IMG/VR virus record: IMGVR_UViG_3300032326_001041
Coordinates: 1-31,733 of that record
Reading direction: 5' to 3' (one strand)
DNA: 31,733 nt
Source of the DNA: a virus
Shown piece after piece: positions 10,109 through 29,484 of the stretch. Position 1 is the first letter of the stretch, and each line of letters opens with the position of its first letter. The position numbers were made by a program, and so were the translations under genes. The notes beneath the pieces are model-generated. The model did no database searches. It saw only the letters and a list, made by a program, of their open reading frames with translations, and was not told the origin of the DNA.

Positions 10109-10415
10109 AATAAAATATATGTGTATCTACTGCGGATTTGTAGTCTTGTAATGCACTAACTAACGGAAATGGTATTCGTAAAATAGCACCATCAGGAATA
10201 TTTGATTCTAAACCACTGTATTGAGGGTTAGCCGTTAAAATTAACCAACCAAAATATGGAGTACTGTATTTTTCAAAACTAATTTTATCAAGACGGGATT
10301 TACCAACTAAATAAAGGTATTGTTGGTCAGTAGGTCTAATTGGTAAATTTACATAAGGAACTACCGTTTGTTGCCCGTTGATTAAAAAGTCTTTATATCT
10401 ATTGTAGTAATCCAT
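10098..10415 (-). CDS. 53: gp53-like baseplate wedge protein (LysM-like fold)
   Basis: Small baseplate protein of 105 aa. It has the pattern typical of gp53/LysM-like wedge proteins: DQQYLYLVGKSRLDKISFEK, then YFGWLILTANPQYSG, and PDGAILRIPFPL. In such proteins the segment recalls a LysM module (a time-to-bind, small-domain, IPxG-type sequence) that may contact peptidoglycan or pack in the baseplate wedge. The start shares one base with the stop of the 2212-aa gene (TAATG) and the end overlaps the start of the 2422-aa gene by 11 bases, so three baseplate genes are tightly coupled. T4 gp53 is about 196 aa, so this is a short version. Gene symbol by analogy with T4. Confidence 0.78.
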   Translation of the reverse strand: MDYYNRYKDFLINGQQTVVPYVNLPIRPTDQQYLYLVGKSRLDKISFEKYSTPYFGWLILTANPQYSGLESNIPDGAILRIPFPLVSALQDYKSAVDTHIFYYGR

Positions 10416-13400
10416 TATGGGAAAGATTTTTTCAAATTAAATTTATTACCCCCAGAGTTAACTTGTGAATATAGGTCTTTCATATTAGAATCTGAAGGTG
10501 CTAATGGTGGTAATTTAGTTACTAACACACAAAGTCTTTCTTTAGAAACATCATAAGGTCTATAGTTTGTATATTTGTTCGAATAATAATCATCTCTAAA
10601 TTTTTTCAAATTTGCGTCTTGAGTATTTTTGGAGGTCAAATAATCCGCACCTAAACCTGTTTGTGGTGTTGTAATTATATTTGTAAAATAAGTGTCCCAT
10701 GCATCTTTATCAGCCTGACTTGCGTTTGGTATTGCCGAATTTATAATACTATTTATAAAATCTTGAGGTTTTTTCAAAATGTCAGTACCAAAAAGTATGA
10801 AGAATCTATTTTTAGCCGGAGTGTAATTTGGAATATAAGTATCAAAAGAAAATGAATCGTTGTACTCATAACTACCAGATGGTATTACATTAAAAGTACT
10901 TAGTTGTTGTATAAAATCGTTAATGTCATTTTTAACTAAATAAGATTCTTGAGTTAATTCTTGTAAAGTATTTGTAACTCCTTGTGGATATGGTGCGGTA
11001 ATTTGAGTGGTTCCTGATATATTATAGATATAAGCATTACCTTGTTTTGTTATGTATCCATCATTACCGTTCATAATATAATTTAATTTGTCAACAATAC
11101 CTATCCATTCTAATTCTTTTGCGGTAATCGTACTATTGTTAACCTCTAATACACCTAAAATTTGACCAGCTTTAGCATCTATCAAATCTTGTATTCTTCT
11201 TTTTACTTTTCTTATTTGTATGTCACTAAAATTAGAGTTATCAACTAATGCAAGTATTGGACAATCGTTGTTATCTACATCTTCTTTTGCTTTAGTTTTT
11301 AGGTTGTTAACTCTTGTTTCAATATTTATTGATTTACCATAAATTGTACACGATTGTGGACTACCTAAAGCGTTAAAACTTCCTGAAGTATATTCTCTTT
11401 CTTTTGTTAATAATTGTAATCCACCTATAAATAATTCATCATTAACTTTGGAAAGTGTTTGTTCTACAACTTCAAAGTATTCTTTACTCTTATCAACTAA
11501 ACTTTGCATCACATTCTGATATCTGATATTTCCTGTTACAATATTTGTTTGAATATCAAGTTTTTGTTCCCCCATCGTACCAATTGGAACACCTCCGTCA
11601 TTTTGAGTACCTCTATTACTTGGGTTAGCAACAACCCCAAATCTATTTAAAGCTTCCTCTTCAATTAATTTGTCATAGGTATCAAGGGTTTCGTTTTTAG
11701 CAGTATCGTCAGCTCTATCATCGTACATTTCTGTATTGGCGTAGTAATTAAAAGATAGTGCGTTTTGTAATTTAGATACAGGTCCCGCTAAACCATGAGC
11801 ACCTATAAAGTTAAAACCTATATTTACATCAACTATCATGGGTTGTACACCTATACCTTCAGGATTTAAATCGAATTTTCCATCATCGTATTTAAAGGTA
11901 AGAGAATCAAGTGCAATTTTTGTGTGAAAAAAGTCTCCAATTCTTAAAACACAAATAGGTGGTGAACCAAATACGCTGTTTGTCACGTCATTAAAAAGTA
12001 GTTTAACTTCACCTTCTAATGATTCACTAACAGTAGGTATTGTATCACCAGGTCTCATACATTGTTGTAAGAATGTTAATCTAGAATTTAAACCTTCAGG
12101 TGTGATTGAGTGAAATGCAGGATTAAAAAATTTGAATTTTTGTTTTATTCCGTTATAAATCATTTCATCAGAATCTTTAATCATATCAAAGTAATTACAC
12201 TCAGTTAATAATTTTCTACCTAATTTTTTTGTTAGTTCTTTTTTTCTTTGTGATGTTAATTGTGTTGTTCTTTCAGTTCTTGTTCTTGTTACTGTTTCGG
12301 GTGTTTGATTTTGTGACCCTCCGCTTGGTGTCTGACTAACAAAAGTATTATTAGATTCTACTGGTTGTGGATTAGTCTGATTATTAGATTCCAATTCAAC
12401 ATCATCGTTTACTTCAGATGTTAAATAACTTGTATTAGTATTATTAGTTTCTTGCGATGCATTAAAATCCCCTTCAACAGAAGTACTTCCATCTCCATTT
12501 GCTCCGCTATTTTCTACGTTATTTACATTAGAGTTGTCATTACCCGTATTGTTTAATGTGTTATCAACAGGGTCAAGTATTTCAACATCAACAATTCTAA
12601 CTCTTCTACACGCCATTGCGTTTACTGAGGATACACCTTCATTACTATTATTTTTAAATGATTTAGAACAATCAATATATTTGTATGGGTCTTGGTCTAA
12701 CTTACCTCCCTCACCTTGATAAGTTTGAACTTTCACTACAATACTTCCGTCTTCAGCATAATCCCCGATTTTTTTAGAACCAGCTGGTTGAGCATATAAC
12801 CACTGTCTAACACTATCCCCTCTTCTTGTTGATAGTTTTATATTGTAGTCAGGATTATGTACCGATGATGCGGTACCCGACAAACTAAATTTGACTTTTT
12901 TTCCTTGTGATAAAGCATCTCCAATTACAACAGCCAATTTTTTTGCGTCATTAAATTCACTTTCAATATAATCAAAAAACTTACTAACACTATCTTTTCT
13001 TGCGTCTATGAATGAAGATAGATATTGAGTTTGCGCTGCGGGACTTAAATTCTGAATTTGTGCTTGTGTAAATTGAGTATAGGTTGCGTCGTTATATTTA
13101 AAAATAAAATTTCTAGCCTTTCCAAAAGTTTTACCAAATAAGTCTGTTCCTCCTGTTTCTAAATAACCTTGTTTAAGAGCTAAATAATCCTGATAAACTT
13201 CATCAAAAGGTTTTTGTGCTTGTAATGGGTCAAATACACCGTTTACAGTTTTTTGCCCAGGATAATCATTATGGAAATAAAATCCAATATCTTGTAAATT
13301 AGGTTGTACAATTGTCGGAGTAAATGTGGGTGCTGGAGTTGCGGTAGGTGTTGGTGATGGTGTAGGTACAGGTGTTGTAGTAGGTGTTGGTGATGGTGTT

Positions 13401-16400
13401 GGCGTTGGTGATGGTGTTGTAGTGGGTGTTGGTGAAGGAGTCGGTGTTGGTGATGGTTGATTACACGGTTTTCCAGTTGGTGTAATTGTTCCGTCACTTG
13501 CGTTTGTAAAATAAGGTACGGTATTTTTTTCAACGCAAACAGTACCAGTCGCACCACTTGATAATGGTATTGAAGTCAGTGTTGTTTGCCCGCAACCTGT
13601 ATAATTTATAGTTGTGGCACTATTTCCTACAGCATAATCGTATTGTAAACAAGGGTCAGGTGGTTGTTGAGGGGGTGGTGGTGGAATTTTTGTAATAAAT
13701 TCAGTTTCTGTTATTTCTCTAACTAAAACTTGAGTTTCAAAAATTTCTTGAGGTGTGAATGTTACCCATTTTTTAATTAAGTCATATATATCATACTTTG
13801 TACATCCCGCAATAAATGAATCTATAACTTGAGTGATTGAACCTTCACCTTCTCTTTCTAATTCTCTATCAACCAAAACATTCATTACTGATGGGTGGTC
13901 AACTAAAATTTTAAAACTAATGTTTCCCTTTCTTGAAGTATTTGTGTAAGTATATATTGGCTCAGGTCTTCCTAAAAATGTATTGTCTTGCCACCCTGTT
14001 TGTATATTTTCATCGAATGATAAATCATAAGGAGGGAACCACATAATTCTACCCCCATTCGGTCCTTTTTCACAAGTTGGTAAATCTTCGTAAGTAAACC
14101 CAGGTGTGTTTGATGTTCTCCAAGCCAAATTTTCTAACGAAAACATATATTTTTTTACCTTGTCTTTTCCAAAGTCTAAACTGCTCGAACTTGGGTCGCT
14201 ATAAGGTACAATATTTAAGTTATATGTATTTGTTAATACCGAGTCAGGATATTTTCTAATGTTACCATCTGTTTTTTGTAATTCTCTATATGTGTAATAG
14301 GGTCTATCCTTTGTAAAGACTCTACAATATTCATATCCAACTGGATTTTCTGTTTGTTCGCCAACTGATGTTTTTGTTGAATATCTTACAACTCTTGAAC
14401 CTTTAGTTAATTCTTGATAACCATCATTAAAAATTTTGGAAACTTGATTGATTGCGTTTCCTACGTGTTCAGTTTTGTACTGAGATTTGTTACCCGCATC
14501 AACTAATTTTTGAGTCGTATCTAATAATGAACCAGGTGTAAAATCGTATGAACTAGAGTCGTCTTCTCTATAACTTGGTGGTGTTCCCCATTGTGTTAAA
14601 TCAGCGCCCCCTCTTTGTGGTAGTTTTCCAGGTTTGGTGTAGTTATCACTACTTGTCCATGTAAATCCTCCAAAAACTGTAGAATTTACTAATGTAGTTC
14701 CATCTGCGGCCGCACCTGCACTATAGTAGTTTCGACTATTGATTCCAAATTTGGTTTCATCTAATTGATTTGTTTCATAAGCTTTTCCTAAGTTTGAGTA
14801 GGATAAAACAGGACCATAAGAAGATGCATTATCATTGTACTTTGAAAGTGGTAACTCTGAAACGTCAGGTGTTACTAATTTTGTAATAGAGCTTTTATTA
14901 TCTCCTATGTAAAATTTTGGTTGTGGTGCAAGTAAACTAAGCCCCTTTTGGTAGTCAGGTCTAAAATAGTTATATGAAAATTGTTGAAATATTAAATTTC
15001 TTGTTGGAATTGATGTATAAGTCATCAATAGTTCTGATGCGTTGTTATTTGCAGGTTCCTTGTAGTTAAAAATAGGACCACCTTGGCCTCCTAACGCAGA
15101 AAGTGTATTTTGTAAAAACGTGTTTTGATTATTAATTCTTGTTGGGTAATCAAATAACTCACCAATAATATATGAATATGGACTATATAAACCAGCCAAT
15201 CTACCTGCAAAATCTACAACATCTAATGGCGTTGGTACCCCCGCAACATCAGGTGGTGATGTAATCTTATAGTTCATAGCGATTACCGGGATATTTCCTG
15301 TCGCCATACCCAAAACATCAAATGGGTCAGTATTTGGTTTTGCAGAAATTCCACCTGTTTGTGGGTCGATTGATGAACTAACAGCATTTACTCTACCAAT
15401 TGTTTGTTGTAACAACTCTAACGCAATTCTAGATTTAAACTCCTTTTGTAAATTTGTTGCACTTATTTTAGCTAAGTTTGAATCTTGTGATAACGGTCCA
15501 TCAGACCCTGTTGGATTATTCTGTAACAAAATACTATATGGAGTATATGTTGAAGGTAGAAAAATAAACGTATTATCTGAATTGGCGTAAGGTAGTTGTA
15601 ATACTTGAATGACTTCATTGTCAAAATCAATATCAGAATATGAACCAGTTCCTGTTGAATATGTATTTGATAGATATGCTTGTGTTTCACTTTGACCGGC
15701 TTGTATTTCTAAAGTACTACCAATAGTGTCATCGATACCATACGGACCAACATTATCTGCCGGTAATAAATCATCATTTATAACAACAGAATCACCATAT
15801 GATGTGGTACTACCTAAAGCCGGTCTTGGCCCATATTTGTTATTTATATAAGTTCTATTTTCAACAGACTGTCCTATATTTTCTAATTCGCTATTTACGG
15901 TATCAGGAAAACCATATTCACCTTCATTTGATTTTGTTTGAAAGTTTAAATTTATATCAGATTGTCCTCTTTCGGTTTCAGAACCGTATTGATTTATTGT
16001 AAATAAGATTGGTCTTTGTTCTTTAGAAATTGTTTCTAACTTATTAGAAACTGTGTCTTCGATTGTATAATTTCCTTGTGATAAAAATAATATTCTTAAA
16101 GTTCTATACATTTCGACCTCAAACTCACTTTGTCCATTTTCAGGTCTATATAAATTTAATTTAAATAATTGTGGTCTCTCATCTACACCTTCTAATTCTA
16201 ATCCACTTTGAATAGTATCCGTAAAGTCGTATTCGCCAGTTCCAATACTAGAACTTATTCTATATTGTTGTAGGTCATTATTTATTGACCACAAAGTTGT
16301 TCCATAAATTTCATCACCTTGCGATGTAGGAAAATATTGATTGGTTGCATATAATAATCCTTCTTGAGTATTACCAACAAACTCTAATTCATTTCCAATT

Positions 16401-17053
16401 GTATATGAAATAGAATATGGTGATTGTGTTCTGAATGATGAAAGTGTTAATACATCATTAATATTATAAACAGTTTGTCCAAAATCTTCACTCGCAAAAA
16501 CACCCCATTTATTTAATATTTTTAAATCTATTTCTTTTTGGTTTCCTATTCTTTCCAAATAGTTGTTAAATGTATCAACAATTGTATATTCTCCTTCACC
16601 AATTGTTAAAATATTTTTGTCGTCATTAATAAAATAAACCGAACTTCCAAACCCTGCAATATTATTTTGAGGTTTGTAAACATTTTTTACTATGTGATAT
16701 AATTCTGAATTATCACCAATCGTTTCTAAATCACTTAATATGGTATCTGTTAAATCATATTGACCTTCGTTTGATTTGTAGTTCAGATTTTTATTAATTT
16801 GAACCATGTCTCCGTATTCTTCACTATCTTCGGGACCATACTGATTTATTGGAAATAATATTCTTTCTTGTCTGTCTCCAATTATTTCGATTGGTGTTGA
16901 ATCAACGGGAGTTAGGTCTGTGTAAGTAAATTCACCTTGAGCAGGTTTATCATCTGTTCCAAAAAAATTGACAACACGATATGCTGGCAGATTTCTTGCC
17001 AACAATTTTTTTCTAAAGTTTTCTGTAGAATTGAATGAAAGTGGACTTTCCAT
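10415..17053 (-). CDS. Giant baseplate protein with N-terminal repeats, Pro-Thr linker and OmpA-like domain, 2212 aa
   Basis: Probable baseplate/wedge protein. In order: eight degenerate ~57-residue repeats (residues ~40-480) with a GEYxxxDT...LExIG...NxY core; a block with TYTNTSRKGNISFKILVDHP (near 1030) seen in my memory of other Bacteroidetes-phage baseplate proteins; a Pro run; a four-cysteine domain (C1135, C1154, C1173, C1197); a Pro-Thr-Ser linker (~1199-1250); an OmpA-like domain (~1255-1495, with NIKLSTRRGDSVRQWL and CRRVRIVDVEI); an Asn/Thr-rich linker; and a C-terminal structural block with FFNPAFHSITPEGLNSRL and CVLRIGDFFHTKIALDSLTF. The OmpA-like part suggests contact with peptidoglycan during infection. 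It starts 39 bases after the tape measure gene and its stop overlaps the gp53-like start (TAATG). The start is the first ATG after a TATTTATC leader. Baseplate role is inferred from position and motifs. Confidence 0.72.
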   Translation of the reverse strand: MESPLSFNSTENFRKKLLARNLPAYRVVNFFGTDDKPAQGEFTYTDLTPVDSTPIEIIGDRQERILFPINQYGPEDSEEYGDMVQINKNLNYKSNEGQYDLTDTILSDLETIGDNSELYHIVKNVYKPQNNIAGFGSSVYFINDDKNILTIGEGEYTIVDTFNNYLERIGNQKEIDLKILNKWGVFASEDFGQTVYNINDVLTLSSFRTQSPYSISYTIGNELEFVGNTQEGLLYATNQYFPTSQGDEIYGTTLWSINNDLQQYRISSSIGTGEYDFTDTIQSGLELEGVDERPQLFKLNLYRPENGQSEFEVEMYRTLRILFLSQGNYTIEDTVSNKLETISKEQRPILFTINQYGSETERGQSDINLNFQTKSNEGEYGFPDTVNSELENIGQSVENRTYINNKYGPRPALGSTTSYGDSVVINDDLLPADNVGPYGIDDTIGSTLEIQAGQSETQAYLSNTYSTGTGSYSDIDFDNEVIQVLQLPYANSDNTFIFLPSTYTPYSILLQNNPTGSDGPLSQDSNLAKISATNLQKEFKSRIALELLQQTIGRVNAVSSSIDPQTGGISAKPNTDPFDVLGMATGNIPVIAMNYKITSPPDVAGVPTPLDVVDFAGRLAGLYSPYSYIIGELFDYPTRINNQNTFLQNTLSALGGQGGPIFNYKEPANNNASELLMTYTSIPTRNLIFQQFSYNYFRPDYQKGLSLLAPQPKFYIGDNKSSITKLVTPDVSELPLSKYNDNASSYGPVLSYSNLGKAYETNQLDETKFGINSRNYYSAGAAADGTTLVNSTVFGGFTWTSSDNYTKPGKLPQRGGADLTQWGTPPSYREDDSSSYDFTPGSLLDTTQKLVDAGNKSQYKTEHVGNAINQVSKIFNDGYQELTKGSRVVRYSTKTSVGEQTENPVGYEYCRVFTKDRPYYTYRELQKTDGNIRKYPDSVLTNTYNLNIVPYSDPSSSSLDFGKDKVKKYMFSLENLAWRTSNTPGFTYEDLPTCEKGPNGGRIMWFPPYDLSFDENIQTGWQDNTFLGRPEPIYTYTNTSRKGNISFKILVDHPSVMNVLVDRELEREGEGSITQVIDSFIAGCTKYDIYDLIKKWVTFTPQEIFETQVLVREITETEFITKIPPPPPQQPPDPCLQYDYAVGNSATTINYTGCGQTTLTSIPLSSGATGTVCVEKNTVPYFTNASDGTITPTGKPCNQPSPTPTPSPTPTTTPSPTPTPSPTPTTTPVPTPSPTPTATPAPTFTPTIVQPNLQDIGFYFHNDYPGQKTVNGVFDPLQAQKPFDEVYQDYLALKQGYLETGGTDLFGKTFGKARNFIFKYNDATYTQFTQAQIQNLSPAAQTQYLSSFIDARKDSVSKFFDYIESEFNDAKKLAVVIGDALSQGKKVKFSLSGTASSVHNPDYNIKLSTRRGDSVRQWLYAQPAGSKKIGDYAEDGSIVVKVQTYQGEGGKLDQDPYKYIDCSKSFKNNSNEGVSSVNAMACRRVRIVDVEILDPVDNTLNNTGNDNSNVNNVENSGANGDGSTSVEGDFNASQETNNTNTSYLTSEVNDDVELESNNQTNPQPVESNNTFVSQTPSGGSQNQTPETVTRTRTERTTQLTSQRKKELTKKLGRKLLTECNYFDMIKDSDEMIYNGIKQKFKFFNPAFHSITPEGLNSRLTFLQQCMRPGDTIPTVSESLEGEVKLLFNDVTNSVFGSPPICVLRIGDFFHTKIALDSLTFKYDDGKFDLNPEGIGVQPMIVDVNIGFNFIGAHGLAGPVSKLQNALSFNYYANTEMYDDRADDTAKNETLDTYDKLIEEEALNRFGVVANPSNRGTQNDGGVPIGTMGEQKLDIQTNIVTGNIRYQNVMQSLVDKSKEYFEVVEQTLSKVNDELFIGGLQLLTKEREYTSGSFNALGSPQSCTIYGKSINIETRVNNLKTKAKEDVDNNDCPILALVDNSNFSDIQIRKVKRRIQDLIDAKAGQILGVLEVNNSTITAKELEWIGIVDKLNYIMNGNDGYITKQGNAYIYNISGTTQITAPYPQGVTNTLQELTQESYLVKNDINDFIQQLSTFNVIPSGSYEYNDSFSFDTYIPNYTPAKNRFFILFGTDILKKPQDFINSIINSAIPNASQADKDAWDTYFTNIITTPQTGLGADYLTSKNTQDANLKKFRDDYYSNKYTNYRPYDVSKERLCVLVTKLPPLAPSDSNMKDLYSQVNSGGNKFNLKKSFP
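12570..13290 (-). other. OmpA-like domain inside the 2212-aa baseplate protein
   Basis: Residues about 1255-1495. An FYFHNDYPG entry segment is followed by a helical stretch, then KVKFSLSGTASS, then N-x-x-LS-x-RR-x-x-SV-x-x-WL and finally CRRVRIVDVEI. The NxxLSxxRAxxV...L and RRVxI pattern is the core of OmpA-family peptidoglycan-binding domains; here the canonical second Ala is Gly (RRGDSV). Recognition is by eye. Confidence 0.6.
13310..13462 (-). repeat. Pro-Thr-Ser linker repeat
   Basis: On the plus strand GGTGTTGGTGATGGTGTT-type units repeat, coding PSPTPTPSPTPTTTP-type peptide. It is a proline-rich flexible spacer between the four-cysteine domain and the OmpA-like domain. Confidence 0.8.
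13463..13651 (-). other. Four-cysteine domain, copy A (in 2212-aa baseplate protein)
   Basis: Cysteines at residues 1135, 1154, 1173 and 1197, spacing 19/19/24, with INYTGCG and GTVCVEK around the middle two. Matches a domain in the neck-region protein at 25324-25509, spacing 18/19/24. Confidence 0.75.
15600..16937 (-). repeat. Eight degenerate ~57-residue protein repeats
   Basis: Units start near residues 40, 97, 154, 211, 273, 327, 378 and 437 of the 2212-aa protein. Each begins with G-x-Y/F-x-x-x-D-T or a near form (GQYDLTDTI, GEYTIVDTF, GEYDFTDTI, GNYTIEDTV, GEYGFPDTV, GPYGIDDTI), followed by L-E-x-I-G, and then an N-x-Y-P/G element. Diverged at DNA level, so an old duplication series. 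Confidence 0.78.
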
Positions 17054-19036: not shown

Positions 19037-19255
19037 TTATGTTTTATACTCACTAATTAATTTGTCTATAAAAAATCTTCTTTCAAAAATTGGCATATTA
19101 ACGCAGTCGTTGTAAGAAAAATTTCCGTATTTTACCAAATAATAAATTTCTTCTAATTGGTTTTTTTTATAGTGAGAAGAAAGGACGAAAAAACTCAGCC
19201 CCAAAAGATAGTTTGAAACTAACTTTTTCTCCTGAAGGGGCTGTAATTGTTCTAT
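19037..19255 (-). CDS. Out-of-frame C-terminal extension of the gp26-like gene (possible frameshift product)
   Basis: In the +1 frame relative to the gp26-like gene the reading frame is open from 19255 to a TAA at 19039-19037, that is over the last ~90 bases of that gene and ~130 bases beyond its stop. The part past the stop codes HYKKNQLEEIYYLVKYGNFS, then NMPIFERRFFIDKLISEYK, which looks like a real conserved helical domain (compare the NMPxxxRxFxIxKL pattern I recall from short T4-like baseplate-hub/chaperone proteins). There is no ATG in this frame before the NMP motif; the only alternatives are a TTG in the overlap. A ribosomal frameshift is therefore the simplest way to make it; a T6-C tract (19193-19187, GAG TTT TTT CGT) is a candidate site. 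A sequencing indel is the main alternative. Confidence 0.55.
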   Translation of the reverse strand: MEQLQPLQEKKLVSNYLLGLSFFVLSSHYKKNQLEEIYYLVKYGNFSYNDCVNMPIFERRFFIDKLISEYKT

Positions 19256-19925
19256 TTAGGTCTAATTTGGGTTCACAATCTTGTATAAATTTTTGTATTT
19301 CTTTTGAATCTTTTATTGGTAAATTATTAACAAATTTTGATATTTCTATTTTACTTGTCTCCCCATCAAGTTCTACAATATGTTTTTCTAGTTTCTTTGT
19401 AACTATCGGTGCGGTTAGATTTTTAGGGTATTGGTCTTGTAGTTTTTCTAATTCTCTTTGGTCTCCTAAATTTAATAATTTTAATTTTAGATTTTTGTTT
19501 GATATTTTTGTTGTAAAAGTATATAATCCGTTTTCGTTTGGATTATGTATCGGTTCTTCGTAAGTTAATGAATCAAAATTGTACTCGATTGTAAATTTTT
19601 GCCCATTAAATGGGTCTACAAGTTCAATATTGTATTCAGAACCAAAAGCAGAATTTCTAAGAAATATTAAAATTGCTTGTACATCTACATCCAATAACTG
19701 ATTAACGTCAAAATTTGGTTCGTAAATTTTATTTTTTAATAGATTATATATTAACCCATCTTTTATAATGTTTGGTGACATCATAATGTTTTCATCCGAT
19801 GCGGTTAAATAACCGACTTTTATACTTTCTTTTTTTGGTTTGTAAAACACACCTTTACTAGGTAGTTTTATTACATCATGCGGTAAATTAAAATCCATTT
19901 GTCCGTAAATTTGTGATTGCTCCAT
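19167..19925 (-). CDS. 26: gp26-like baseplate / tail assembly protein, 252 aa
   Basis: Relative of T4 gp26-type baseplate hub assembly proteins. The signature is at the N-terminus: IKLPSKGVFYKPKKE (residues 20-34), then VGYLTASDENIMMSPNIIKD, then LLDVDVQAILIFLRNSAFGS. Many relatives have a CxxC pair in the next segment; here it reads VDPFNGQKF, so a zinc pair is missing. The protein ends FGAEFFRPFFSL just before an out-of-frame conserved extension. The gene sits immediately upstream of the tape measure, the position where tail assembly chaperones (lambda G/GT type) are found in many phages, so a chaperone role is plausible. There is a 92-base gap to the tube gene which holds a terminator. 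Confidence 0.72.
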   Translation of the reverse strand: MEQSQIYGQMDFNLPHDVIKLPSKGVFYKPKKESIKVGYLTASDENIMMSPNIIKDGLIYNLLKNKIYEPNFDVNQLLDVDVQAILIFLRNSAFGSEYNIELVDPFNGQKFTIEYNFDSLTYEEPIHNPNENGLYTFTTKISNKNLKLKLLNLGDQRELEKLQDQYPKNLTAPIVTKKLEKHIVELDGETSKIEISKFVNNLPIKDSKEIQKFIQDCEPKLDLNRTITAPSGEKVSFKLSFGAEFFRPFFSL

Positions 19926-20605: not shown

Positions 20606-21496
20606 CTAGTATTTAACTTTTTCTCCTCCCTTAGTTAGATATAAGTTTACTGGATTTTCTTCATATTCTTGATTTAACAATTCAGATATTTTCTCAATAT
20701 TTCTTAGGTCATCATCTGAAAACCCAATTAATGGTTCCCATATAGGATTTGCATTAACATCGTTTTTAAACATCGGTGTCCCCCTTAATTCCATATTTTT
20801 TGACAATTCTTTTGCCAAATCTCTGCAATACGAAATAAAGTTTTTAAGTGCATTAAATTTTTCTATTTCAGGGTTTGATGCACTACCTTTATTAAAGGAT
20901 ACCGGTTCAAAAACACACATGTCTAAATATTCATTTAGTTCTGATGGTGATAAAGCTTCAATTTTTGTATCGTTTGACACTTTGTTTCCTATTTTTCTGT
21001 ACTCATTTAAATTTTTCGCTAACTCTCGCGAGTTAATACCCTCTTTATTACTCATTATAAGGTTGTATGTCGCCTCTTTAAGTGTTTCAGGACTATGACC
21101 TCTTGCGGTTATGATTGCAAATATTGAACCCCCGTTAATACACTCCACAAAGTCTTTCCAAGCAGGGCCTGTTTTAGCCATCATGGAATCTAATATGAAT
21201 CTTTTATTACCCGGTTCTTTAAAATTTCTAAATGCCCCCAAAGCATACCCTATGATTTTTTTTCCTCTATAATCAAAAGGTTCAACCCCGATTTCTGACC
21301 GATACTCCGCAAAGTCTTCAGTTGACATTGGGACTTCATTTTCATCTTCATCCACAACCATAATAGATGTTGGCATAAACATGATGTTGTCGTCCCAATC
21401 AAACGCATAATATTTCAAGTCAGGTCGTCCTACCTCATCAAAACCTTCTTTTAGGAATTTTTTAATTCCCCTTTTAACCAAACCTTTTAAATTCAT
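20606..21496 (-). CDS. HAD-superfamily phosphatase-like protein, 296 aa
   Basis: Probable hydrolase of the haloacid dehalogenase superfamily; substrate unknown. After a basic N-terminal helix (LKGLVKRGIKKFLKEG) it has motif I as YYAFDWDDNIMFMPT with the nucleophile/acid pair D33 and D35, motif II as IITARGHS (T130), lysine candidates around 213-218 for motif III, and motif IV as IGFSDDDLRNIE (260-263). All expected catalytic positions are present, so it may be active as a nucleotidase, polynucleotide phosphatase or protein phosphatase. It starts one base into the stop of a 45-aa gene (TAATG) and lies between sheath and tube, an unusual place for an enzyme. It might act on a tail protein or simply be a hitch-hiker in the late unit. 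Superfamily is clear, function is not. Confidence 0.75.
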   Translation of the reverse strand: MNLKGLVKRGIKKFLKEGFDEVGRPDLKYYAFDWDDNIMFMPTSIMVVDEDENEVPMSTEDFAEYRSEIGVEPFDYRGKKIIGYALGAFRNFKEPGNKRFILDSMMAKTGPAWKDFVECINGGSIFAIITARGHSPETLKEATYNLIMSNKEGINSRELAKNLNEYRKIGNKVSNDTKIEALSPSELNEYLDMCVFEPVSFNKGSASNPEIEKFNALKNFISYCRDLAKELSKNMELRGTPMFKNDVNANPIWEPLIGFSDDDLRNIEKISELLNQEYEENPVNLYLTKGGEKVKY

Positions 21497-21651: not shown

Positions 21652-24600
21652 TTATAGGTCATCAAATGAAGCTCCTGCCGGTGTAATTACAAATTCGATG
21701 TCAATATATTCTAACGCTCTTGTAGGTTTTATAAATATTTTACCTGTTAAAGTGTTAGAGTCTAAGTCTTCAGGTGTGTTAGATACTTGAACTCTAAAGT
21801 CAATAAGACCACGGTCTCTTCTAATTTGGTCTAATATTGGGTTTACTGAATCCAAGAAATCTTGTCTAACTTTTGCATCGTTTTGTTCAAACAATAATCT
21901 AACCGCCACAGCCGAAATTAACTTACGTGCTTGTAATAATAGTCTTCTAACGTTAATTCTATCGAGTGCAGATTCTCTTAGTTGTAAAGTTTTATTACCC
22001 CATATTACTGTGCCAACATCATTAAAAGTTGCAATCGGGTTAATTCTTCCTTTATATAATGTATCTCTGTCATCTTGAGTAAGATTTCTTCTCGCTCTAA
22101 TTGCGTTCACCAAACCTCTTGTGTAACCGGCTGATGCAAACCATGGGAATGCAATATTATCAGTTAGTGCGAAGTTTCTAACTACCTCTGATGTTGCTGG
22201 TATGTAAAGTTGTGTGTTTGATACACTATCTAACGTTAAAATCCAAGGATAATAAGACGCCGTGTAGTTTGAATCGATTCCTGTTTGTTCCAAATTATCT
22301 ACCGCCTCTGTTGGGAATATTAATCCTTCAGAAATATCATCATAAGATGGTAAAAATAAATTAAAGTCAGGTGTTGTACAAACATAAAGTGAATCCGCTC
22401 TATCGAATTGTACCATTTCTATCGCGTCTTCAACTAAATTTGAATTGTTTACATAATCAATACCCGGTGTTGCAAATACATTTATATTAGTTCTTTCAGG
22501 GTTAGCGAATGTATCTTGACCCCATCGATATGCGTAGTAGTCTGTATTTGCCCAATTTTCTTGATTAGGTCCAGAAATAGGTTTGAATGCCCCCCAACCC
22601 GTAGCGGTTGGGTAAGTAACTGAACTTGCAGCTCCATTCATAAATCCAGTTTGACCAAGAGCAAACGTATCACCGTTTGTTCTATATTCTCTATAAATGT
22701 CCCAACCATCAAAACCACCATAAGGTAAAACTGTGAATTTTCTTGTATTTAGTTTATAGTATGTGTCGGAAACATTAGTAGGTTCTGAGTCAAATGAACC
22801 CCTACCTACGTAAAACGCACTTTCCCCTGACGTTGCGTAGGCCGATGATATGGTAACAATAGTTGCCCCACTATCTAAGTGGAAACCTTTTGTTTTATAT
22901 CCCCACTCATCGCCGGTTGTTGCAGTTGCCAAATTATTAGGAATTTGTTTTCCTTTATATTGGAAAAAATCATAATCAAAACCAACACCGTTACTGATAC
23001 CTAAGTAAGCAAAACGAGGATTCTCACCCGAAGAACGTTGTTCATTATTAAATCCACTTGTAGTACCAAATGGTGGGTCATAAATAAGTTCGTTTGGTTT
23101 ATAATATACAGTTTTGTAAGGAACAAATGGTGGTGTAGCGTTAGCATATTCTCTTGAAATATACCCTTCAAAACCACAAGGTAGTGAGTCTATTGGGGCG
23201 TCGTTGTTCATTTCTAACATAACATATTTAGACCTTACTTGATACTCACCATTAGATGTACCAATTTTTTTAGCTATAAAACTATTTTGACTAGGGTTCA
23301 TAGTACAACCACGGAAACTTTCTAAAACAACAACATTTGAGTCTGTATCGTAGAAATCACGAACTAATACGTCAAACGTTAAATTATTAAATGAGATATT
23401 TGCGATTGATAATTTTACCAAAGTGTTAGCCGCGTTACCATCAGATATTAAAACAAATCTAAATAGGTTAAATACTCTACTACCACGTAATTCAGAAACT
23501 AAATAAGGAGTTTTAGGAGTTTGGTATTGTTCCAAATAGAAAGCAATACTTTTTAAATAGTTTAAGTTAGTTGAGTCTGTAACTCCAGGTAATTCTACTA
23601 AATCACAATATAGTCCTCTAATTTTTCCTTCGTTATATCCATAATTAAGTAGTGAACTATAGGTTTCTTCAACAAAAATTGGAACATCTGTTCTACTTTT
23701 TCCAAAATTACTACCTCCAAAAACTTTTCTCAAAAAGTTTGGACTTAGACTGTTCATCGATGTTTCAAATGAAAAGTTTGTATTTTGATAAGTTGTTCCT
23801 GTAATAAGGAAAGTCGCTTTAGGGTTTTTAGTAACTCCCGAATAATTACCTGAACAAACCATTGTAACACCTGTAGTTGCTGAAACTTGAAATAAAGGTC
23901 CGTGTTGAGTAGAACTAAATGTTGAAATACCTCTCGACCTTAAAGTTGCAACAACAACTTCATCATATTCACTGTATGGTGAACCTGAATAATTTGTGGT
24001 ATAAACCGCAACTGTACCTGAGTAAACACCTGAAGCTGGAGTCGATGAAATACCTGACATTGCAACCCCAAAACCAACACCATAGTAACTGTTGTTTGGT
24101 GGATTATGGGTATAATCAAATAATGCGTAGTACCAAGGGTCGTTTGTTGTTTGTGCAGACAAAGAACTTGCAGTTGCCCCTGTTAAATTACCAACACCAA
24201 ATGTTTCTGAGTATAATGTAATTGTTCCTGTACCATTTGTACTAACACCTGTTACTGAATTGAAAGTAGAAGAACTTACGCTACCCCAAAATAGTGCGGT
24301 ATTTCCCGATAATGCTAATGAATTTGAAAATGCTTCAATTCTATTTGAAACATAAGTTTGTAAGTCTTGATTTACTGATGAAGTTCCACCATCAAATTGT
24401 GTATACGTATTGTAGAAACTACCATTTACGTTAATTGCTCCTGGTATTGCTGAAGTGAAAGTAATAGTACCACCAGTTGTTCCTGTAAATGTTATACCCA
24501 AAGGACCTGTTGTACCTGTTGCCGTCATCGTTGATGGATTAGGGTTTGCGATTGTAGTAATAGACCAAGATGGTCCCGCATCATAACCAGATAATCCAAG

Positions 24601-24885
24601 TACTCTTGTTACAAATAATTGATTTGATTGTGTTAAATATGATTTAGCGATATAACCTAATTCATATTTTGGAATTTGTGTGTTCACAAATTTTTCAGGA
24701 CTAGTACCTCCAAAATAAGTGGTAAACTCATCAAAATTTGTTATGAAAATTGGTTCAAATGCAGGACCACGAAGTGTTTCTCCCGCTAAACCTAATGTAG
24801 TAACCCCAACACTTTGAGCTACAAATGTTAAATCTCTTTCTGAAGTATAAACTCCTGGCGAAACGAATATTTTATTAGATGCCAT
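21652..24885 (-). CDS. 18: Tail sheath protein, gp18-like, enlarged (1077 aa)
   Basis: Contractile tail sheath subunit. The N-terminus is classic: IFVSPGVYTSERDLT, then TTLGLAGETLRGPAFEPIFI and FDEFTTYFGG. The C-terminal core is also classic: IAFPWFASAGYTRGL, then LTQDDRDTLYKGRINPIATF, GTVIWGNKTLQ, INVRRLLLQARKLIS, and a last domain TGKIFIKPTRALEYIDIEFV. Between about residues 115 and 380 is an added Gly/Ser/Thr-rich beta region that T4 gp18 (659 aa) lacks at this size; it probably forms a surface domain on the outside of the sheath. The gene is preceded by TATTTATA 32 bases before its ATG and by no Shine-Dalgarno. It is followed after 18 bases by a 45-aa gene. Confidence 0.94.
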   Translation of the reverse strand: MASNKIFVSPGVYTSERDLTFVAQSVGVTTLGLAGETLRGPAFEPIFITNFDEFTTYFGGTSPEKFVNTQIPKYELGYIAKSYLTQSNQLFVTRVLGLSGYDAGPSWSITTIANPNPSTMTATGTTGPLGITFTGTTGGTITFTSAIPGAINVNGSFYNTYTQFDGGTSSVNQDLQTYVSNRIEAFSNSLALSGNTALFWGSVSSSTFNSVTGVSTNGTGTITLYSETFGVGNLTGATASSLSAQTTNDPWYYALFDYTHNPPNNSYYGVGFGVAMSGISSTPASGVYSGTVAVYTTNYSGSPYSEYDEVVVATLRSRGISTFSSTQHGPLFQVSATTGVTMVCSGNYSGVTKNPKATFLITGTTYQNTNFSFETSMNSLSPNFLRKVFGGSNFGKSRTDVPIFVEETYSSLLNYGYNEGKIRGLYCDLVELPGVTDSTNLNYLKSIAFYLEQYQTPKTPYLVSELRGSRVFNLFRFVLISDGNAANTLVKLSIANISFNNLTFDVLVRDFYDTDSNVVVLESFRGCTMNPSQNSFIAKKIGTSNGEYQVRSKYVMLEMNNDAPIDSLPCGFEGYISREYANATPPFVPYKTVYYKPNELIYDPPFGTTSGFNNEQRSSGENPRFAYLGISNGVGFDYDFFQYKGKQIPNNLATATTGDEWGYKTKGFHLDSGATIVTISSAYATSGESAFYVGRGSFDSEPTNVSDTYYKLNTRKFTVLPYGGFDGWDIYREYRTNGDTFALGQTGFMNGAASSVTYPTATGWGAFKPISGPNQENWANTDYYAYRWGQDTFANPERTNINVFATPGIDYVNNSNLVEDAIEMVQFDRADSLYVCTTPDFNLFLPSYDDISEGLIFPTEAVDNLEQTGIDSNYTASYYPWILTLDSVSNTQLYIPATSEVVRNFALTDNIAFPWFASAGYTRGLVNAIRARRNLTQDDRDTLYKGRINPIATFNDVGTVIWGNKTLQLRESALDRINVRRLLLQARKLISAVAVRLLFEQNDAKVRQDFLDSVNPILDQIRRDRGLIDFRVQVSNTPEDLDSNTLTGKIFIKPTRALEYIDIEFVITPAGASFDDL

Positions 24886-25170: not shown

Positions 25171-26406
25171 TTAAACCAAATAAGCAACTGTTTTTATTAC
25201 AGAGGTTTGCGTAATAAGTTTTTTAAAAGCATTAACAACCAAAGTATCACCATCATTTATTTGGATGACCGATAAATTATCACCGACATAGTTACCATTT
25301 ATAAAAACCGAAAACGAGTCGTTACAAACCGAACTTGTTGTTGATATGGTTACTCCCGTTGAGTTAGAAAAAGATGGTGTTGTTCCTCCTTGAACACAAT
25401 ACGTCGATGATGTTCCTGATGTGATACCTGAAATTGATATTGGAATACCATTACACCCCGTAAAGTTTAAATTGTTTGATGTATTAGATGTAAATGAAAA
25501 ATTGTAACAACTTACCAAATTTTCAACTCCCGAAACTTTTAAATCAACCGTATATCTAAAAACTTCAGACAGAGTGGTAACACCAGGTAGAAAAGTCAAA
25601 TCCAAATCAAAAAAATCGGGTCTTGGTGGTTGTTGTTGAACTCTTCTTGATTTGTTGATAGTATCCACTTCAAACATCGAAAGTTGTCTAGTAATCGCTG
25701 GTGAAACTTCAAACTCATCTTCATCAATCAACAAACCTTTCATGATAAAAGTATAACTTATGATATAGTATTTTCTTTTTCCTATGTCTTTTGCTGACTC
25801 ATCGGTAACACTTTCCATTATTAATGGAATATAATGTCCCTTTATTTGTCTATACGCCTGCTTTGATGTAAATTTTTCCATAACAATTTTATTGAACTCG
25901 TTAAGTTCTCTCATTCTGTTACAAAATATTTTCACATTATATGTAATATCGACAGGAATTGGTTGTGGTATTTTATAAACGTCAGCCCCTTTTCTTTGAC
26001 CATCCCATGTTGGAACCGAATAGTAAAAAAATTGTCTTCTGTTTGGAATATTTGCTGCTCCTCCCTGAAATGTTCCATATTTAACTTCAGGAGTTCTTAC
26101 TGTTGCAATAAATGGTAAGGATATATTTTTGTCTAAATCTTGAAAGTCCCATGTTTCAGTAAACTGAGACCAGTTTTGATTTGTAATAATTCTATCTACA
26201 ATTGGAACGACCTTTTCTTCCATTACAAGTTTTAGGTCTTCTTTTACAAAATCCAACATACCTCTATCTAAATCCGCATGTAAAACTCCTTTAGGTAAAT
26301 AAGTACCATAGTCAGTTATATCATCAAGCATTTCTTGACGCCTTTCTCGACCAACCTTTTCAGGTATTAATGGTAATGAATTTTTAACTTTTTTTGGTAA
26401 TGCCAT
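25171..26406 (-). CDS. Neck / tail-completion protein (gp15-like candidate) with C-terminal cysteine domain, 411 aa
   Basis: Probable tail terminator or sheath-stabiliser. The N-terminal ~250 residues contain LHADLDRGMLDFVKEDLKLV, then KVVPIVDRIITNQNWSQFTE and DLDKNISLPFIATVRTP, followed by PQPIPVDITYNVKIFCNRMR and a YYIISYTFIMKGLLIDEDEF segment. The pattern K-V-P-I/V...W...D...I-x-x-P-x-I-x-x-R recalls gp15-like or terminator proteins of Bacteroidetes T4-like phages. Residues ~270-411 are an add-on: a linker, a four-cysteine domain (C300, C318, C337, C361) and a short beta domain. Two bases separate it from the upstream gp14-like gene, whose last codons supply a GAGGAG that may serve as ribosome site. 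Position between neck and sheath genes supports the role; the specific T4 equivalent is uncertain. Confidence 0.6.
   Translation of the reverse strand: MALPKKVKNSLPLIPEKVGRERRQEMLDDITDYGTYLPKGVLHADLDRGMLDFVKEDLKLVMEEKVVPIVDRIITNQNWSQFTETWDFQDLDKNISLPFIATVRTPEVKYGTFQGGAANIPNRRQFFYYSVPTWDGQRKGADVYKIPQPIPVDITYNVKIFCNRMRELNEFNKIVMEKFTSKQAYRQIKGHYIPLIMESVTDESAKDIGKRKYYIISYTFIMKGLLIDEDEFEVSPAITRQLSMFEVDTINKSRRVQQQPPRPDFFDLDLTFLPGVTTLSEVFRYTVDLKVSGVENLVSCYNFSFTSNTSNNLNFTGCNGIPISISGITSGTSSTYCVQGGTTPSFSNSTGVTISTTSSVCNDSFSVFINGNYVGDNLSVIQINDGDTLVVNAFKKLITQTSVIKTVAYLV
25324..25509 (-). other. Four-cysteine domain, copy B (in gp15-like protein)
   Basis: Cysteines at residues 300, 318, 337 and 361 (spacing 18/19/24) with LNFTGCNG and STYCVQGG around the middle two. 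Aligns with copy A at 13463-13651 in a different virion gene. Confidence 0.75.
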
Positions 26407-28751: not shown

Positions 28752-28770
28752 TATCAACAAGTTGAACTTT

Positions 28771-29484
28771 ATGAAAAAATCAATATATGACATATTTTCA
28801 AGAAAAATAGATATTATAGAATCTCATCTGAAAGTAGAGTCCAGTAAAAAACAAAAAATTATTTCTGAAATAAAAAAAATTAGTGTAGATAAACTACCAT
28901 ATAGTTATGATTCATTAGGTGGGTTTATTGATGATGTCACTATGAAAACACACTACAACAAACACTACAAAGGTTATGTTGAAAAGTTGAATGTTGAGTT
29001 AGAAAAAATTAAAGGAAAAGATTTAGAACTCGAGGAAATAATTTTAAAAATTTCAAAGTTTAATACAACAGTAAAAAATAATGGTGGAGGTGCTTTCAAT
29101 CACGCACTTTTTTGGAAAATGTTATCCCCAAAAAAAACAACATTAAAAAATCCACTAAAAGGTAAAATCGAAAGTTCATTTGGTACCTTCGAAAAATTTA
29201 AAGAAAAATTCGAAGAAGAAGCAAAAACAAGATTTGGTTCGGGTTGGGTTTGGTTAATTCTAACAAAACAGAACAAATTAAAAATTGTTACAACAGCAAA
29301 TCAAGATAATCCTTTAATGAATACGGAAAAAGAAAATGGTTATCCAATTCTTGGGTTAGATTTGTGGGAACACGCATATTATCTTAAATACAAAAATAAA
29401 AGAGACGAATATATTTCTAATTTTTGGAAAGTTGTTAATTGGGATTTTTGTAATGAACTTTTCGAATCGCAAACAAAAAAGTAA
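28771..29484 (+). CDS. sodA: Iron/manganese superoxide dismutase, Mn-type
   Basis: Converts superoxide to oxygen and hydrogen peroxide, presumably protecting the host cell during infection. The chosen ATG at 28771 gives 237 aa; a TTG at 28762 would add three residues. After a ~40-residue helical extension not usual in the family, the SOD fold begins at KLPYSYDSLGGFID. Metal ligands are all there: H61 (MKTHYNKHY), H111 (AFNHALFW), D197 and H201 (GLDLWEHAYY). The second-sphere H65 and Y69 are also present. NNGGGAFNHALFWKML with Gly rather than Gln, and TTANQDNPLM with Gln178, point to Mn preference. FGSGWVWL and NFWKVVNW complete the signature. The gene lies between a helicase and a neck protein, with a TATTTATA leader. 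Base use looks like the neighbours. Confidence 0.94.
   Translation: MKKSIYDIFSRKIDIIESHLKVESSKKQKIISEIKKISVDKLPYSYDSLGGFIDDVTMKTHYNKHYKGYVEKLNVELEKIKGKDLELEEIILKISKFNTTVKNNGGGAFNHALFWKMLSPKKTTLKNPLKGKIESSFGTFEKFKEKFEEEAKTRFGSGWVWLILTKQNKLKIVTTANQDNPLMNTEKENGYPILGLDLWEHAYYLKYKNKRDEYISNFWKVVNWDFCNELFESQTKK

Follow-up and report, generated by a model that had tools for sequence, protein, structure and literature searches.

Two otherwise unrelated proteins encoded in the T4-like tail region of a 31.7-kb virus record (IMG/VR record IMGVR_UViG_3300032326_001041, positions 1–31,733; this whole stretch of 31,733 nt is referred to below as the window) each carry four cysteines at nearly the same distances from one another. 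Besides sheath, tail tube and gp26-like hub proteins, the window encodes gp32-like and RecA-like proteins and, on the opposite strand, a gp13-like head–tail adaptor. As the sequence-only reading of this locus had proposed that a single movable surface domain was added to both a neck and a baseplate protein, we asked (i) whether the two segments are homologous; (ii) whether the domain is indeed optional and mobile; (iii) whether it belongs to a known family; and (iv) what it might contribute to the virion.

One domain in two unrelated virion proteins

The cysteine positions and coordinates from which this proposal started are exact (C300, C318, C337 and C361 in the neck protein; C1135, C1154, C1173 and C1197 in the 2212-residue protein; Table 1), as are the spacings of 18/19/24 and 19/19/24 residues. 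BLASTP of the two full proteins aligned a common domain of about 65 residues with 20 of 64 positions identical, 36 of 64 positive and one gap (E = 2e-8). The local BLOSUM62 score of the pair is 114, about 11 standard deviations above composition-matched shuffles in which the cysteines were held fixed (mean 35, sd 7.3, maximum 76); since none of 5000 such shuffles reached 114, the similarity extends well beyond the cysteines. Between them, residues including G, T, CV, T, P, F and T are kept in at least 90% of 41 copies.

Threonine, serine, asparagine and glycine are abundant in both segments, which could inflate their similarity. Nevertheless, given the outcome of the shuffles, it is exceedingly improbable that two low-complexity Thr/Ser/Asn-rich stretches merely happen to have similar cysteine spacing, particularly as a profile built from the two window segments recovers neck-family copies at E below 1e-6 and the same fold, with the same order of strands, is predicted by AlphaFold in both carriers. 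The alignment is thus better than chance apart from the cysteines, the predicted folds do not differ, and the proposal of one homologous domain in unrelated carriers stands.

Table 1. Coordinates in the window of the four-cysteine domain copies, their carriers and adjoining regions
Feature	Position	Strand	Basis
Four-cysteine domain, neck copy, C300 to C361	25324..25509 (profile envelope 25312–25515)	-	translation, cysteine positions, profile match, five strands in AlphaFold model
Four-cysteine domain, 2212-aa copy, C1135 to C1197	13463..13651 (profile envelope 13451–13657)	-	translation, profile match, AlphaFold pLDDT 91
Carrier 1, 411-aa gp15-like tail terminator (neck) protein	25171..26406	-	Foldseek to T4 gp15, E 8.8e-7 to 3.6e-6
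gp15-like core, residues 1–262 (limit approximate)	25621..26406	-	alignment and model
C-terminal beta domain hosting the insert, first half, residues 263–298	25513..25620	-	pLDDT ~90; flanks aligned in homologues with and without insert
C-terminal beta domain, second half, residues 363–411	25174..25320	-	model; flanks aligned in homologues with and without insert
Carrier 2, 2212-aa tail-operon protein, putative baseplate role from position	10415..17053	-	in tail gene block with gp26-like hub protein
Pro/Thr/Ser linker directly after the domain, residues ~1200–1249	13307..13456	-	sequence; alignment with relatives
OmpA/Pal-like domain of carrier 2, residues 1360–1428	12770..12976	-	Pfam OmpA E 6.5e-4, below curated cut-off; NCBIfam PA1041 and Pal models

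The carrier proteins and their insertion sites

The AlphaFold model of carrier 1 was matched by Foldseek to a chain of the T4 portal–neck–tail complex (E 8.8e-7) and to crystal structures of T4 gp15, with other tail terminators lower in the list, and its gene lies directly before that of the sheath (21652–24885, minus strand), the position of gp15. By predicted fold, at moderate model confidence, this carrier is therefore a gp15-type tail terminator, in agreement with the label it had been given. It has the same core fold as T4 gp15 (PDB 4hud, 4huh, 9mkb), but possesses an additional C-terminal beta domain, and it is within this domain, outside the gp15 core, that the four-cysteine insert is located. 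The insertion site is fixed, between N-(L/V/I) and the following (S/A/G)-(Y/F)-S-V, and neck homologues accordingly fall into those of about 350 residues without the insert and those of about 411–418 residues with it.

Carrier 2 shares a tail gene block with the gp26-like hub protein (19167–19925). Its description as a baseplate protein derives from gene position only, and we retain it as a role suggested by gene order. The protein has no PHROG match, and its OmpA-like domain is all that Pfam recognizes; among its homologues, OmpA recurred in L090 (E 6e-4), with weak matches in L170 and L091. The four-cysteine domain occupies a variable linker before this OmpA-like part. OmpA/Pal-like domains are of the peptidoglycan-binding type, and contact with peptidoglycan in a phage tail would be interesting. 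Separately, residues ~70–490 of this protein (~15570–16850, minus strand) appear, by eye and from motif positions only, to comprise seven or eight diverged repeats of 50–60 residues with the pattern N-x-Y-G/x-P ... Y-x-I-x-D-T-I ... L-E-x-I-G; self-BLASTP did not detect these repeats.

Predicted structure and cysteine pairing

When modelled alone with AlphaFold (41 sequences), the carrier 2 copy was predicted confidently as a five-stranded beta fold (mean pLDDT 91). The neck copy, modelled within the whole protein, has the same strands, the blocks of the domain having pLDDT values of 72–87 in a whole model of low confidence (pTM 0.40). In both models, the strand limits put C1 across from C2 at the open end of the first hairpin. 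Conservation of all four cysteines, as membership in a zinc domain family would require, does not extend to the third carrier family described below, every copy of which has lost C3 and C4 while keeping C1 and C2. This joint loss favours two separate disulfides over a metal site, and disulfides are most likely what the cysteines of the predicted domain form. The conservation of all four cysteines in the neck and 2212-residue families, together with synthesis of the protein in a reducing cytoplasm, would suit a four-cysteine metal (zinc) site; we nonetheless consider such a site very improbable, as it accounts neither for the joint loss nor for C1 directly facing C2, and as the cysteines are far apart in the sequence and form no CxxC knuckles. 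In the arrangement that we propose, C1 and C2 would pair across the beta-hairpin of a compact five-stranded unit and C3 and C4 in its later strands, and both pairs would form disulfides after lysis.

Further copies and a third carrier

Relatives were taken from IMG/VR using the neck protein, the 2212-residue protein and alignments of the domain, after which whole records were subjected to profile searches; carriers were found by pattern-seeded scans. Among the matches listed, at least 53 distinct copies, distributed over three protein families, were found in uncultured virus contigs. Both carriers of the original two-carrier picture are thus confirmed, but the picture was incomplete: the profile search revealed, in the records of the closest relatives and just beyond the window, the gene for a third carrier, a protein of about 900 residues with Thr-Pro linkers. 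In G001, a record whose neck protein is 100% identical to that of the window, about 10 kb separates the neck gene from the third copy, which is upstream in terms of transcription; the third copy would thus lie beyond the window end. The third-family insert replaces a loop of about 8–10 residues, and the best segment of relatives that lack the insert is 83% identical. A laminin-G-like identity of this carrier, read from motifs, is not claimed here, as Pfam and PDB profiles gave no confirmation.

A module in a Thr-Pro-linked protein of 600–702 residues is probably a distant relative of the domain as judged by profile comparison (hhalign probability 91%), although the genome-level profile E value was only 0.11, and we do not count this protein as a fourth carrier. 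In the related phages that encode them, these proteins (L171, 928–3033, minus strand; L326–L330) consist of cysteine-rich modules joined by Thr-Pro linkers.

Gain, loss and selection

In each of the three carrier families, there are relatives in which the domain is missing between intact flanks, bearing out the claim that it is an optional addition. The combinations vary from record to record: the domain is present in all three genes of G001; in the 2212-residue family and the third gene of G427, whose neck protein is a plain 350 residues; in the neck and third genes, with no copy in the 2212-residue family, of G010 and G425; and in the neck gene only of G007 and G008. Members of the 2212-residue family without the domain include L088–L095 and those of records G003, G007, G008, G010, G016 and G425. 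When a tree of 63 neck proteins was built with the insert left out, the distribution of the insert on it required at least eight gains or losses, five of which are forced by well-supported branches.

A tree of the domain copies, in contrast, sorts them by carrier gene with no more switches between genes than the minimum possible, although, with just 69 columns and some long branches, this tree provides moderate evidence of such sorting. Jumps between genes were accordingly few and old. Gain and loss within each gene are therefore frequent and transfer between genes is rare, so that the domain is movable, as had been suggested, with respect to its presence or absence within a gene, but shows little movement from one gene to another. 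The clustering of copies by carrier, rather than by genome, led us to reject recent copying between genes of one genome. Signatures of a mobile element were not seen: neither target-site duplications nor element ends were detected at the junctions of three pairs of proteins with and without the insert, one of which (L114/L033) aligned uncleanly after it.

Among insert-bearing neck proteins, mean identity is 52% for the insert, about 61% for the flanking beta domain and 74% for the gp15 core. Of the nine domain pairs, eight have dN/dS values of about 0.06–0.21; the ninth pair, nearly identical and with very few changes, has a value of about 0.4. The insert thus diverges faster than the gp15 core and is under purifying selection. 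A domain that changes faster than the core and yet stays intact is what would be expected of an exposed surface that is in use.

Searches for known relatives

By sequence, no relative of the four-cysteine domain was found in Pfam, PHROGs, NCBIfam or the PDB. The best Pfam match of eight members, to Fn3_ELFN, came from a single member and was below the cut-off (E 0.083); no Ig, FN3 or Big family was matched. No Ig fold was among the Foldseek matches in the PDB, none of which had an E value below 0.2, and the five predicted strands fall short of an Ig-type beta-sandwich, with its seven or more strands in a Greek key. No fold match in either the PDB or BFVD was below E 0.001. Among the BFVD matches (TM 0.72–0.75) is one, with 33% identity and E 0.037, to the TP901-1-type tail protein of an uncultured phage; these matches hint that the predicted fold may be more widely spread. 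There was no Pfam match to a carbohydrate-binding family (BACON, CBM), and a porphyran-binding module was reached by Foldseek only at E 0.81 and probability 0.20.

Among the cultured phages of INPHARED, neither the domain, in five different queries, nor the whole neck protein retrieved anything convincing, and the view that the domain is not a standard T4 element is upheld. The suggestion that similar domains occur in Bacteroidetes proteins fared less well. Profile searches of 395 Bacteroidota genomes gave no credible copy: the only match, in a protein judged to be unrelated, covered half of the profile at a per-genome E of 4e-4, a value that is about expected over 395 genomes, so that the match is at chance level. 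A scan of genome contigs also gave no match.

A putative surface domain of uncultured T4-like phages

We think it probable, though by no means certain, that the four-cysteine domain represents a new family of optional accessory domains displayed on the virion surface in a clade of uncultured T4-like phages; its homology, modularity and pattern of presence and absence are observed here, its fold is predicted, and surface exposure, disulfides and binding are what we infer from them. The insertion sites are loops or linkers, namely in the C-terminal beta domain of the gp15-like tail terminator, in the linker before the OmpA-like domain of the 2212-residue tail protein and in a loop of the ~900-residue protein, and because the domain sits in loops, the carriers should still fold without it. 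Repeated gain and loss would arise most simply via recombination between relatives that differ at the insertion loop. As to function, the domain may bind polymers of cell surfaces or of the environment weakly and multivalently, as has been proposed for Ig-like domains of other phages, which may aid adhesion via weak carbohydrate binding (PMC10721106); Hoc is known to bind bacterial surfaces (PMC10385173).

By this analogy, weak multivalent adhesion is the likely role, and the Thr-Pro linkers and OmpA-like domain of the carriers speak for surface attachment, whereas the low dN/dS, which gives no indication of an arms race at a receptor surface, and the failure to match any carbohydrate-binding fold significantly speak against it. 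The main rival is a stabilizing role, in which the domain would be a structural brace or spacer that strengthens the neck, baseplate and fibre-like proteins through disulfides and has no ligand. Such a brace would fit the cysteine pairs, the neck location and the precedent of phage Milano, whose particle is stabilized by disulfides across neck, collar, capsid and tail (PMC10491603), but many close relatives in each carrier family do without the domain, half of the cysteines are gone in the third carrier, and the predicted bonds lie within the domain and not between chains; we therefore regard it as unlikely. It also appears rather doubtful that the domain is a nearly neutral, self-folding insert that is tolerated by its carriers and spread by recombination and drift: while its patchy distribution, its lack of a recognizable binding site or catalytic motif and its faster evolution relative to the gp15 core could all be explained in this way, the low dN/dS in eight of nine pairs, the retention of fold and motif in 53 copies and the independent gain in three virion genes could not readily be.

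The preferred reading, an optional surface domain, places it beside the promiscuous Ig-like domains of phages, among which Fraser et al. (2006), as cited in PMC10385173 and PMC10721106, count T4 Hoc, the C-terminus of lambda gpV and the FNIII-A insertion in lambda gpJ. The likeness is one of function and not of membership: the four-cysteine domain is small, predicted to be all-beta and optional, virion proteins that are unrelated to one another (three carrier families here) have it as an addition or an insertion, and, as is thought of phage Ig-like domains, it would act at the outer surface. However, it has no sequence or significant fold match to the Ig, FN3 or Big families and has a cysteine pattern of its own, and, unlike phage Ig-like domains, it has so far been found, among the matches listed, in only three protein families of one phage group. 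Because it behaves like promiscuous Ig-like domains and yet is not Ig by sequence or predicted fold, we regard it as its own family with behaviour of a known kind.

Homologous domains have also been reported in structural proteins of different function, with ongoing shuffling in receptor-binding proteins and neck passage structures (Smug et al. 2023, PMC10684548). The four-cysteine domain shares with this mosaicism its occurrence in proteins of different function; that survey, however, used known ECOD domains, whereas ours is in no library searched here, and its changes are mostly gain and loss at fixed sites rather than shuffling between genes. Agrobacterium phage Milano (PMC10491603), which has a contractile tail, likewise has cysteine bonds in its neck and tail proteins, but there they largely link chains of core structural proteins, while those predicted here are inside an optional inserted domain.

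Promiscuous phage surface domains are few, and these results add to them a family that the libraries searched here lack; the matched virion proteins with and without insert in close relatives constitute clean natural experiments; one of them, the tail terminator, is a part of the neck not normally seen as an adhesin carrier. If the domain binds cell surfaces, it would help to explain how these phages find their hosts. More tentatively, and as a possibility that we would not favour at present, unrecognized disulfide-stapled modules may serve a large group of uncultured T4-like phages as interchangeable surface attachments, placed in loops of core virion proteins and joined by Thr-Pro linkers in fibre-like proteins, with each phage carrying its own on/off combination as recombining alleles, so that neck, baseplate and fibres together would display an adhesion code. 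The probable distant relative in the 600–702-residue proteins would fit such a code.

Other features of the window

The sheath protein is unusually large (1077 residues), and Pfam sheath domains cover only its residues 863–1068, the long N-terminal part being without a match; IMG/VR contains many sheath homologues of similar length. A 296-residue protein encoded between sheath and tube (20606–21496, minus strand) has no Pfam match at E 0.01, and its N-terminal start, YYAFDWDDNIMFMPT, resembles the DxD motif of HAD phosphatases. A gene for an Fe/Mn superoxide dismutase (28762–29484, plus strand; Pfam Sod_Fe_C E 4.8e-41, Sod_Fe_N E 2.2e-21) adjoins the helicase gene. Bacteroidota account for most of the closest bacterial homologues found for this enzyme (up to about 52% identity), which may point to the phylum of the host.
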